DNA of 64,000 bases from Marinobacter halotolerans (GTDB lineage Bacteria; Pseudomonadota; Gammaproteobacteria; Pseudomonadales; Oleiphilaceae). Made by a program: the position numbers and the translations under genes. The notes beneath the pieces were generated by a model. It saw only the letters and a program-made list of their open reading frames with translations. It searched no databases and had not been told where the DNA came from. The stretch covers positions 124,001 through 188,000 of the forward strand of contig NZ_VMHP01000001.1 of NCBI RefSeq assembly GCF_008795985.1. Direction: 5' to 3'. This document shows positions 12,436-43,409 of this stretch, piece by piece (position 1 is the first letter of the stretch; each line of letters opens with the position of its first letter).

Positions 12436-13305
12436 CTACTTGGCGGCCTGATCGGGCTTATGGCCCAGATCGGGAAATGCCTGGAAGCGGATTTCATAGC
12501 CGGTGTATTTTCGAATGTTGATCACGCCCGTGTCGAGGATCAGATACTGCCCCTTGATACCCTGAAGCACGCCCTCGGCACTGGATGCCTTGTCTAGATT
12601 GTGGGTTTTCACCTTCTCCGGCCAGACCTCTACCGGGTAGCTGAGCGCCAGGCCCGCTTCGCCAACCGGGCGAAGCGCATCTTCACCGTACTGGTCCTGC
12701 AGGGCTTTCAGGTCATCTTCTATCAGCCCCAGAAGACGATCCCGCTCCTGGGCCAGGTCCATGTCCGGGACTTCACCCTTGAGCATGGTGCGCCAGTTGG
12801 TGCGATCCGCCACATGCTTTTTGCAGGCCACTTCCACGAAACCGGCAAGCTGCCGGGTGGCCACGCGAATCATCGGGATGGCGTCCACCGCGCCCTGATC
12901 AATCCACCGGGTTGGTACCTGGCTGCCACGGGTAATGCCTACCTTCAGTCCGGATGAGTTCGCCAGATAGACCACATGCTCCACCATGCAATGGGTTTCG
13001 CCCCACTCCGGCTCGCGGCAGGTGCCCTGATAATAGTGGCATTTCTCAGGGCTCATAATACAGGTATCACAGGCCGCCAGCTTTCTGAAACAGGGGTAAC
13101 AGAAACCCTGGCTGAAGCTCTTGTTGGTTTTGCGGTCGCAGTTTATACAACGAATCACGCCGTCGAAGTCCAGCCTCAGCGGGTACCCTATCAGATCATT
13201 CAGCGGAATCCGGGTGTCACCCACAAGCAGGCTGTAGCTCACCGGGCTGTCAGCCTCGGCGGGCATTTTCCGGAGTCGCCCGGTGATGTCCACCACTGCG
13301 CTCAA
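12436..13305 (-). CDS. DUF2797 domain protein with Cys clusters
   Basis: Conserved protein of unknown function, 289 residues, matching DUF2797. The central part has many cysteines: CINC (about 53-56), FCYPCF, CDTC and the later CHYYQGTC and HC. The spacing looks like zinc-ribbon sites, so metal binding is likely. The C-terminal half holds a segment with GLKVGITRGSQVPTRWIDQG, recalling a GIY-YIG-like fold (a tentative reading). Its start overlaps the stop of the DUF1315 gene by four bases (ATGA), which implies translational coupling. A Fur box lies about 60 bp upstream of the DUF1315 start, so iron control of this pair is possible but not shown. Confidence 0.85.
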   Translation of the reverse strand: MSAVVDITGRLRKMPAEADSPVSYSLLVGDTRIPLNDLIGYPLRLDFDGVIRCINCDRKTNKSFSQGFCYPCFRKLAACDTCIMSPEKCHYYQGTCREPEWGETHCMVEHVVYLANSSGLKVGITRGSQVPTRWIDQGAVDAIPMIRVATRQLAGFVEVACKKHVADRTNWRTMLKGEVPDMDLAQERDRLLGLIEDDLKALQDQYGEDALRPVGEAGLALSYPVEVWPEKVKTHNLDKASSAEGVLQGIKGQYLILDTGVINIRKYTGYEIRFQAFPDLGHKPDQAAK

Positions 13306-13592
13306 GACTTCACCTCGAAGAAATTATCCGAATCACCGGTGGCGCCGTTGGTAGTTCTGGACACGCTGGGGTCGCAGGCCGTTCCGGCCTTCTTGCCACG
13401 ATCCAGGTAACCGACCCGCTCCTCTTTCGGCACCTGGTGGTGCTCCTCGTAATAGATGATCGCTTCCATACAGATGGTGCGCTGCTCTTTGGTCAGCGCC
13501 CGGCCGTCCGGCCACTTGCCCAGCTCCAGAGACTGCTTGAGGTTCCGGTAAACCGTCGGGTCAAGCCGCTTGATCAGCTCTTCATAGGTCAT
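13302..13592 (-). CDS. DUF1315 family protein (YeaC-like)
   Basis: Small soluble protein of 96 residues matching DUF1315 (E. coli YeaC-like). The sequence PTVYRNLKQSLELGKWPDGR and KEQRTICMEAIIYYE are family-typical. The C-terminal third is polar and probably disordered. Its stop overlaps the start of the DUF2797 gene, so the two are made together. Function is unknown. Its promoter region (13593-13672) includes a Fur box that also overlaps a plus-strand promoter for a predicted small RNA. Confidence 0.85.
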   Translation of the reverse strand: MTYEELIKRLDPTVYRNLKQSLELGKWPDGRALTKEQRTICMEAIIYYEEHHQVPKEERVGYLDRGKKAGTACDPSVSRTTNGATGDSDNFFEVKS

Positions 13593-13636
13593 TCCGATCT
13601 CCCGTGGATGATTTGGGATAAAGTTACTGCAAACTG

Positions 13637-13666
13637 TTGACAGATATAAATGATAATGATTATCAT
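13637..13666 (+). promoter_or_regulatory. Sigma70-type promoter for a predicted small RNA
   Basis: A consensus -35 TTGACA (13637-13642) is followed at 17-18 bp by TTATCA / TATCAT (13660-13666) as the -10. Transcription would start near 13672. The -10 is inside the Fur box, the usual layout for Fur repression. Confidence 0.7.
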
Positions 13667-13667
13667 T
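13649..13667. promoter_or_regulatory. Fur box (ferric uptake regulator operator)
   Basis: AATGATAATGATTATCATT is a 9-1-9 perfect palindrome and contains the complete 7-1-7 Fur motif TGATAAT-N-ATTATCA. It overlaps the -10 of the plus-strand promoter and lies about 57 bp upstream of the DUF1315 start on the minus strand, so it could control either direction. Confidence 0.88.
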
Positions 13668-13671
13668 GTTT

Positions 13672-13761
13672 CACCAAATGACAGAGGTTGTGCTCATTTG
13701 GTCTCTCTCATCAGAGCTTACACGCTCTCTTCATGCCCCACCTTGATGTGGGGCTTTTTTT
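13672..13761 (+). ncRNA. Predicted Fur-controlled small RNA (RyhB/PrrF-like logic)
   Basis: About 90 nt between a Fur-controlled promoter and a strong terminator, with no ORF of note. The 5' part forms a 9-bp perfect hairpin (ACCAAATGA 13673-13681 with TCATTTGGT 13694-13702). A pyrimidine-rich single-stranded stretch (TCTCTCTCATC) follows, then a short AGAGC/GCTCT stem and the terminator. Size and design match iron-responsive regulatory RNAs such as RyhB and PrrF, which under iron starvation pair with mRNAs of iron-using proteins. I see no clear sequence identity to those RNAs. The CU-rich segment could pair with Shine-Dalgarno regions (inference). The 3' end lies antisense to the last codons of the rhomboid gene. 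Confidence 0.68.
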
Positions 13762-14606
13762 GACACCGGCAAAATCACCGCAAGCGCCAGGCCCGACAGG
13801 AATCCGCCAAGGTGTGCCTCGTTGGCCATTCTGCCCAGACCCAGCATTTCCGTGAAAGGCGTAAAACCCACGACCATCCAGGCGACGGCAAACGTCACCA
13901 GTGCCGGTGGAAACTGGAACCTGGGGCGCCGACGCTGGCTCAACCAGCAGTAGCCGAGGATACCGTAAACCACCCCGGACAATCCGCCGAAAAGAGGGCC
14001 GGATACCAGGTACTGGAGTCCATTGGACAACACGCTGACCACCGCAAACAGAAGCAGCAATCGCTGACGACCGTCAAACCACTCGATCTGGCTACCCAGA
14101 AACCAGAGCATCACCGCGTTGAACACGATATGAGCCCAGCTGAAGTGCAGGAAATCCGGTGTCAGCAGCCGCCAGATCTCCCCGTTCGACAGGGTCACGC
14201 TCAATGCCTGAATGCGCTCTGCCATGCTCCCCCAGTTATACACCGTGGGGTCGATGATCATCAGATAGGTCGCCAGCCGGTTCTGGCCCAGTTCAGTAAA
14301 GAAAGAAACAACCACGCCGATGACAATCATCGCCAGCACCAGCGGCGCGTGTCGCGGGGAGGGCTGCCAACGACCGCCGACAAAGACCGGTGAACTGACC
14401 ACCTCATTGACCCGTTCCCGTAGCTCCGGCTCGCTCAGGAACCGCTCCAGCGCGTGCAGAACCGGGTCTGCATGATCCGGGTTCTCCAGCCACAGCACCT
14501 GGGAGTCGCCTTCTTCCGTTATCCGGTGTTCGACGCCCTGCTCTTTCAGCCACTGGCTGAATCCCGCCAGGTCCGCTTCGGCCTCAATCTGTTTAACCCG
14601 GTACAA
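13731..14606 (-). CDS. Rhomboid family intramembrane serine protease (GlpG-type)
   Basis: Inner-membrane protease that cleaves transmembrane substrates. The 291-residue protein has an N-terminal cytoplasmic domain (about 1-75) like the GlpG NRho domain and a six-helix rhomboid core. The catalytic pair is Ser210 in GGLSGVVYG and His265 in ANEAHLGG. The helix with H154, H159 and N163 (HFSWAHIVFNAVMLW) supplies the oxyanion-site residues. It is the distal gene after the metallophosphatase gene, only 3 bp away. Its last codons (VSKKAPHQGGA) overlap on the other strand with the terminator of the predicted Fur-linked small RNA. Confidence 0.93.
   Translation of the reverse strand: MYRVKQIEAEADLAGFSQWLKEQGVEHRITEEGDSQVLWLENPDHADPVLHALERFLSEPELRERVNEVVSSPVFVGGRWQPSPRHAPLVLAMIVIGVVVSFFTELGQNRLATYLMIIDPTVYNWGSMAERIQALSVTLSNGEIWRLLTPDFLHFSWAHIVFNAVMLWFLGSQIEWFDGRQRLLLLFAVVSVLSNGLQYLVSGPLFGGLSGVVYGILGYCWLSQRRRPRFQFPPALVTFAVAWMVVGFTPFTEMLGLGRMANEAHLGGFLSGLALAVILPVSKKAPHQGGA
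13735..13761 (+). terminator. Rho-independent terminator of the predicted small RNA
   Basis: A 7-bp perfect stem (GCCCCAC / GTGGGGC, loop CTTGAT) is followed by seven T on the plus strand. The minus strand has no T-run after the stem. It therefore serves plus-strand transcription although it lies within the 3' end of the minus-strand rhomboid gene. Confidence 0.85.
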
Positions 14607-25927: not shown

Positions 25928-26000
25928 TATAACGATTGTCAGCCTTATATTAGAAGGTTGTCATTCACTAAAAACACAGAGAGACAGGGAGAACGACCTC

Positions 26001-26579
26001 ATGGCATTTGAACTTCCCGCACTTCCGTACGAAAAGAACGCACTTGAACCGCACATCTCTGAAGAAACGCTTGAGTACCATTACGGCAAGCATCACAACA
26101 CCTACGTGACCAAGCTGAACGGCCTGATCGAAGGTACTGACAACGCCAACAAGTCGCTCGAAGACATTATCAAGAGCGCCAGCGGCCCGCTGTTCAACAA
26201 CGCCGCACAAGTCTGGAACCATACCTTTTACTGGCACTGCCTGAGCCCGAACGGCGGAGGTGAGCCCACAGGTGCTGCGAAAGACGCTATCGAGAAAGCC
26301 TTCGGTTCTTTCGAAGACTTTAAAAAAGAGTTCAATGAAAAAGCCGCTGGCAACTTCGGTTCAGGCTGGACCTGGCTGGTGAAGAAAGCCGATGGCAGCG
26401 TTGCCATTGTTAACACCAGCAATGCCGAAACGCCGCTGACAGGCGCGGATAAGCCAGTGCTGACCGTCGATGTGTGGGAGCATGCGTACTACATCGATTA
26501 CCGGAACAGCCGTCCGAACTACCTAGAGGCGTTCTGGAAACTGGTCAACTGGGATTTCGTCAACGAAAACATGGCCTGA
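26001..26579 (+). CDS. sodB: Superoxide dismutase [Fe]
   Basis: Cytoplasmic enzyme that converts superoxide to hydrogen peroxide and oxygen. The 192-residue length fits Fe-SOD. Metal ligands lie in HYGKHHNTYV (first His), NNAAQVWNHTFYW (second His) and DVWEHAYYIDY (Asp and third His). The Gln in AAQVWNH is the Fe-type residue, as opposed to the Gln position used in Mn-SODs. A strong bidirectional terminator follows. sodB is a classic target of Fur-linked small RNAs in other bacteria, which is relevant to the predicted small RNA at 13.7 kb. Confidence 0.96.
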   Translation: MAFELPALPYEKNALEPHISEETLEYHYGKHHNTYVTKLNGLIEGTDNANKSLEDIIKSASGPLFNNAAQVWNHTFYWHCLSPNGGGEPTGAAKDAIEKAFGSFEDFKKEFNEKAAGNFGSGWTWLVKKADGSVAIVNTSNAETPLTGADKPVLTVDVWEHAYYIDYRNSRPNYLEAFWKLVNWDFVNENMA

Positions 26580-43261: not shown

Positions 43262-43409
43262 TGGATTGAAGCAGTATCCCCCATGGTGGAGGAGCCGAGT
43301 AGTACCTCCGCCGCCATATGGGGATGTTTAGTCCGCCGGATAAACGAATTTTTCAGGCACTTTCGTTCTTTCCTTGTTTTTAAGCCAGCTCACTGAGCTG
43401 GCTTTTTTT
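43262..43409 (+). ncRNA. Structured RNA candidate downstream of the response regulator gene
   Basis: About 148 nt with two ordered hairpins before a terminator and no ORF. Hairpin A (43276-43325) pairs ATCCCC with GGGGAT, then ATGG with CCAT and GGAGG with CCTCC. Hairpin B (43326-43345) pairs GTTTA with TAAAC and TCC with GGA. A TATTCT box (43249-43254) could be its -10. Several GGA triplets are present, which in RsmY/CsrB-like RNAs bind CsrA, but most here fall in stems. It could also be the 3' UTR of the response regulator gene. No known family recognised. Confidence 0.5.
43382..43409 (+). terminator. Plus-strand terminator between the response regulator and argG
   Basis: A 10-bp perfect stem (AAGCCAGCTC / GAGCTGGCTT) with an ACT loop is followed by a seven-T run on the plus strand. 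There is no T-run on the minus strand, so it serves the RNA candidate or the response regulator transcript. Confidence 0.9.

Follow-up and report, generated by a model that had tools for sequence, protein, structure and literature searches.

A predicted small RNA gene behind a Fur-type palindrome in Marinobacter and its likeness to PrrF

Marinobacter is known for marine oil degradation. In the genome of Marinobacter halotolerans, a candidate RNA locus lies between a DUF1315 gene and a rhomboid gene, on the strand opposite to both, and raises the question of whether it is a small-RNA gene controlled by Fur and, if so, of which kind. The initial annotation of the window (the whole 64,000-nt stretch of DNA that was analysed) had proposed an iron-starvation RNA of the RyhB/PrrF design under Fur, and from anatomy and conservation this appears the best-supported reading. 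The locus would be a conserved small-RNA gene that Fur probably switches on at iron depletion. Among the titles listed when Marinobacter was combined with PrrF, RyhB, a Fur box, small RNAs or iron limitation, in a body of literature with subscription journals largely outside, none reports this RNA; in the accessible text of a paper mentioning both Marinobacter and PrrF, Marinobacter appears in a cited title. The Marinobacter RNA would belong to an already known functional kind, the Fur-repressed iron-sparing RNAs. If the reading is true, Marinobacter has a defined regulator for iron starvation whose targets can be tested; robust genetics have been described for Marinobacter subterrani (PMC4503921).

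Anatomy and conservation of the locus

A sigma-70-type promoter is found on the forward strand at 13637–13666, with TTGACA at 13637–13642, an 18-nt spacer and TATCAT at 13661–13666, corresponding to 11 of 12 consensus bases. It is the only promoter-like site in a 701-nt scan (13300–14000; shuffle mean 0.2) and is oriented towards the RNA. The −10 is covered by a perfect 9-1-9 palindrome of Fur type, AATGATAATGATTATCATT (13649–13667, no strand assigned), to which no other site in the 64 kb comes within three mismatches, nor any in 100 shuffles. When perfect 9-1-9 palindromes of any letters are counted, two occur in the window versus 0.45 expected, so that the Fur-type one is less rare by this count. 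The second, GCCAGCTCACTGAGCTGGC at 43384–43402, is GC-rich and not Fur-like.

The predicted small RNA of ~89 nt (13673–13761, forward strand) is based on anatomy and conservation, its start being placed 7 nt after the −10 and its end at the T-run. All of its predicted elements lie on the same strand. Hairpin 1 (13673–13702) carries the apex GAGGUUGU in this genome and GGUCGU in 35 of 37 copies. It runs into the core GGUCUCUCUCAUCAG (13700–13714), which conservation and the predicted fold mark as a mostly single-stranded, proposed pairing region, and the fold then places a small stem-loop 2 (AGAGC/GCUCU) at 13713–13728. The intrinsic terminator (13735–13761) consists of a 7-bp stem with six G-C pairs at 13735–13754 followed by seven T, and is one of three terminator-like sites in the 701-nt scan, where 0.6 were expected. 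The fold of 13672–13761 was calculated as −31.0 kcal/mol; 200 shuffles averaged −19.8 (z −3.86), and none was as good. The promoter, the palindrome over the −10 and the 7-bp GC stem with its seven T, as described in the initial annotation, are all present. These are the features expected at sequence level of Fur-repressed iron-sparing RNAs, i.e., a Fur box over the promoter of a terminated non-coding RNA.

With blastn, 36 of the 37 genus genomes searched, the own genome among them, yielded the RNA unit, the miss being a 62% complete genome; none of 21 genomes from other families did. A promoter-free covariance model confined to the RNA (R1), built from 37 copies in 36 genomes, was run at E 1e-5 on 163 family genomes and detected the RNA in 129. 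Of these, 120 belong to the genus (124 genomes in all; 36 of the 120 had served for training and 84 had not) and 9 to the family's other genera (39 genomes), a split that assigns 14 misses beyond those listed to other genera, following list order. The four genus genomes without a match include two incomplete ones (62% and 76%); the other two carry a completeness rating of 100%. One copy per genome was found, except for one genome of the 163 with two matches at E 1e-5. In that genome the two RNA copies stand in tandem, 233 nt apart, at locus L038 (G020:C4:50752-51098), comparable to PrrF1/F2 of P. aeruginosa; locus L017 is the same place and was dropped.

The exact core pattern was found in 93 stretches of the named collection; among the 80 of these that were listed, 73 belong to Marinobacter, one to Tamilnaduibacter, one to a bin labelled Halomonas and five to unrelated bins. 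In this collection, 89 of the 94 exact core matches are preceded by a Fur-like box, and the other five, in unrelated metagenome bins and devoid of such a box, were taken as chance. A complete copy, including Fur-like box and terminator, is present in the bin labelled Halomonas (L320, PAKW01000046.1), by mislabelling or transfer.

All 37 aligned copies agree in at least 13 positions with a 19-mer Fur consensus, and TTGAC is present in 36. The core GGUCUCUCUCAUCAG is identical in 33 of the 37, and CUCAUCAG occurs in every one. In the predicted folds of these copies, hairpin 1 appears in 37, the terminator in 36 and a mostly unpaired core in 37. Three pairs of the terminator change on both sides with the pairing kept (covariation); for hairpin 1, no pair has both sides changed and hence covariation gives no support for it. 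The initial annotation had stated that a lack of conservation of hairpin and terminator in relatives would refute it, and these counts, together with the blastn result and the 120 of 124 genus genomes detected by the covariance model, do not refute it.

Relation to PrrF

In the scan of the whole window, no RNA family was at or above its cut-off at the RNA locus. In a local Rfam scan, PrrF (RF00444) scored 32.7 bits (E 0.0004), missing the curated cut-off of 90 bits by far. The alignment runs end to end (model positions 1–150, some middle positions left out) and spans promoter, Fur box, 5′ hairpin, core and terminator. In the loci of 20 relatives, RF00444 matched at this place with 29–44.5 bits in 18 of 21 copies, three copies giving no match at E 1. 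Three of 14 control genomes gave a match at E 1, none over the cut-off, and 0 of 14 did so at E 0.01.

Because the RF00444 model includes the Fur box, promoter-free models were used. R1, applied at E 0.05 to 244 genomes of the order, gave 72 matches outside the family, 17 of which (in 12 genomes) coincide with RF00444 matches (49 outside the family), where a rough estimate of the expectation is ~0.001; the remaining 55, without RF00444 overlap, are probably chance. The second model, R2, was made of 33 PrrF-type cores plus terminators from other families, after four of 37 extracted PrrF-type sequences had been dropped (three shortened at the T-run and one duplicate). It detects 38 of 38 tested copies in 37 loci with 21.2–32.3 bits at modest E values of 0.00027–0.05 (own genome's copy, 21.5 bits, E 0.044), and its best match elsewhere, 32 loci without the RNA included, is 15.6 bits. 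When 381 whole genomes were scanned with R2 at E 0.001, by contrast, no match was obtained in any of the 18 family genomes listed. Outside the family, R2 matched in eight families of the order; training sequences had come from seven of these.

The alignment of the other families mostly reads CUCAUCA[AG]GCUA[AG]UCACGG. As a whole this core is absent from Marinobacter, in which the first half is kept and the second half is replaced by the GAGC stem-loop. The score below the cut-off, the reciprocal matches of promoter-free models and the replaced core half together point to a diverged relative of PrrF and not to a member of RF00444. The RNA thus looks like a diverged marine relative of Pseudomonas PrrF, the relatedness being weak but reciprocal. 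The initial annotation had seen no clear identity to RyhB or PrrF. In the case of PrrF this has to be revised, as identity is found in core, terminator and Fur box; in the case of RyhB it stands, since RF00057 matches no more than the 3′ part, at chance level (17.7 bits, E 0.5, against a cut-off of 55), and membership was rejected.

It could be argued that a Fur-repressed RNA arose here independently of PrrF and came to share the CUCAUCA core and the terminator by convergence, a CU-rich core being suitable for any ribosome-binding site. The scores far below the RF00444 cut-off, the missing GCUAAUCACGG half of PrrF and the finding that neither neighbour gene adjoins the PrrF-type loci of other families (L049–L071) would agree with such an origin. 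Nevertheless, the promoter-free models match each other's loci, and forms in family f38 combine the triple CU and CUCAUCA of Marinobacter with the GCUAAUCACGG of Pseudomonas, both of which argue for common descent and make an independent origin rather unlikely.

RF00444 at E 0.01 matched 44 genomes, nine of them above the Rfam cut-off. Such matches suggest that PrrF-type RNAs may not be confined to Pseudomonadaceae but occur in several further families of the order, for the most part under the Rfam cut-off, where they would escape annotation. They form a series for studying the joint change of small-RNA core and targets. Five PrrF-type model matches in a row, ~277–302 nt apart, were observed at G293:C3:1547625-1548838, and three each in G136:C8 and G399:C9.

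Neighbouring genes and coding potential

The DUF1315 gene (13302–13592, reverse strand; PF07023, 90.7 bits) and the rhomboid protease gene (13731–14606, reverse strand; PF01694, 102.6 bits; stop codon 13731–13733) adjoin the RNA on either side in all 36 loci compared, plus one locus of another genus, and always lie on the opposite strand. Pfam confirmed both assignments of the initial annotation as well as that of the Fe/Mn superoxide dismutase (see below). The 3′ end of the rhomboid ORF overlaps the 3′ part and terminator of the RNA on the other strand; its last codons lie opposite the terminator (13731–13761), and therefore a single DNA stretch serves both. The same overlap is present in relatives, for instance at locus L003. 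The rhomboid and DUF1315 genes have the same direction (13302–14606), and any transcript reading through both would cover the RNA in antisense over its full length.

A wider proposition is that Fur-controlled RNAs form one family across the order, with PrrF as its branch in Pseudomonadaceae and a Marinobacter branch that would have lost half of the core and gained a second contact through the apex GGUCGU, and that read-through from rhomboid to DUF1315 would act as a perfect antisense decoy tying RNA activity to the operon. We consider it speculative and distinctly unlikely.

The DUF1315 gene, read from the other strand, has its start codon 57 bp downstream of the palindrome, and the Fur box might serve this divergent gene, the RNA-like features being incidental. 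With the sole promoter-like site in 13300–14000 facing the RNA, and with RNA and terminator conserved beyond the box, this is very improbable. A short iron-regulated peptide gene is hardly credible and was rejected for want of a conserved frame: an ATG frame exists in 32 of 37 copies, but two different frames are used across species, five of the 37 lack the ATG, there is no space for a ribosome site before it, and the frame ends are unconserved. The earlier statement that the interval has no ORF did not hold literally, as a 22-codon ATG frame lies inside the RNA and a 55-aa TTG frame overlaps it; it holds in so far as the ATG frame is unconserved.

Proposed mechanism, candidate targets and known systems

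Taken together, it appears likely that the locus encodes a Fur-repressed, trans-acting base-pairing RNA, a diverged relative of PrrF, which represses sodB, sdhC and acnB in iron starvation. In the presence of iron, Fur-Fe(II) on the palindrome over the −10 would block transcription; in its absence, the ~89-nt RNA would be made and would end at the terminator. The single-stranded core GGUCUCUCUCAUCAG, perhaps with the apex of the 5′ hairpin, would then pair with the leaders of sodB, sdhC and acnB, and this pairing would hide ribosome sites and lower the expression of iron enzymes, whereby iron is spared. We infer transcription, Fur binding, repression and any use of Hfq from the sequence.

The three genes were picked beforehand as PrrF-regulated genes, and the leaders of 30 genomes were taken for each. 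Regulation by PrrF is described for sdhCDAB and acnB in the accessible part of PMC2851614, and for sodB in that of PMC13104616. The sodB gene, encoding an Fe/Mn superoxide dismutase (26001–26579, forward strand; PF02777 and PF00081), does lie in the same window, as had been pointed out in the initial annotation, and is a plausible target by leader complementarity. Its leader contains a proposed core-pairing site, AGAGAGAC (25978–25985, forward strand), and a possible, suggestive site for pairing with the hairpin apex, ACGACCUC, at the start codon (25993–26000, forward strand). Among the 30 sodB leaders, GAGAGA was found in 29, ACGACC in 28 and AGGGAGAACGACCTCATG in 27. The sdhC leaders contain AGAGAGTGTGAGAGCGCTGTGAATA in 30 and ACGACC in 29 of 30 genomes, and the acnB leaders CTGATGAGG in 29 of 30; further upstream the sequence of the leaders varies. 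ACGACC, the complement of the apex GGUCGU, sits at the start of sodB and early in the coding region of sdhC. Part of this conservation must be due to constraint on ribosome sites or coding.

The pairing was measured as the best contiguous helix, corrected for accessibility. By this measure, 8 (sodB), 6 (sdhC) and 7 (acnB) of 282 control leaders were as good; two of 284 had been dropped for containing the RNA gene, and the control gene starts are crude ORF guesses. With permuted RNAs in ten genomes, 0 of 100 were as good for each of sodB, sdhC and acnB. The separation is weaker against 80 controls with strong ribosome sites, 5, 4 and 5 of which were as good for sodB, sdhC and acnB, respectively. 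The core contact is better supported than the apex contact, which by itself is suggestive: the mean fraction of controls as good was 0.14 for sodB and 0.09 for sdhC, and no apex contact was seen with the acnB leader (control fraction 0.75). The own genome offers a weak helix for acnB, and its best one for sdhC is formed outside the core.

Raw duplex energy separates the targets poorly, as the means (sodB −34.4, sdhC −31.8, acnB −30.6) fall within the spread of the controls (mean −27.4, sd 7.4) and, for the core alone (−14.7, −14.9 and −18.1, respectively), the best controls (to −22.3) are stronger than all three. Among 48 genes of the window, sodB comes first in raw duplex energy, narrowly (−36.5 vs −35.6). 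Five perfect complements of the core, CTGATGAGAG, exist in the own genome, one being the RNA gene itself; the other four are within or antisense to ORFs and not at gene starts, and thus no new target emerges. A 14-mer target search with three mismatches was rejected as too noisy (324 matches vs 157 in the reversed control).

Among known systems, NrrF, HrrF and BrrF are alike in that they are controlled by Fur or induced at low iron and act on iron-related genes, according to PMC4144887 and PMC7377471. No such name is among the 22 Rfam matches up to E 10 in the local scan, though not all of them may be Rfam families; rseX, anti-hemB, ncS54 and other sub-threshold matches, many on the terminator half, were taken as chance. 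RyhB of enteric bacteria (RF00057) shares the design and the proposed role, that of a Fur-repressed RNA acting on iron-enzyme mRNAs (PMC4144887). PrrF itself is reported to be without sequence homology to RyhB in the available portion of PMC4211561, which also describes how it was discovered: intergenic regions were searched for a Fur site together with a terminator, and the initial annotation followed the same reasoning. From PrrF, the Marinobacter RNA differs in the GAGC stem-loop that stands in place of the GCUAAUCACGG half of the core and in its neighbour genes. With PrrF1/PrrF2 of Pseudomonas and ArrF of Azotobacter, it has in common the Fur box in the promoter, the 5′ hairpin, the CU-rich core with CUCAUCAG, the intrinsic terminator and the occurrence in one or tandem copies.
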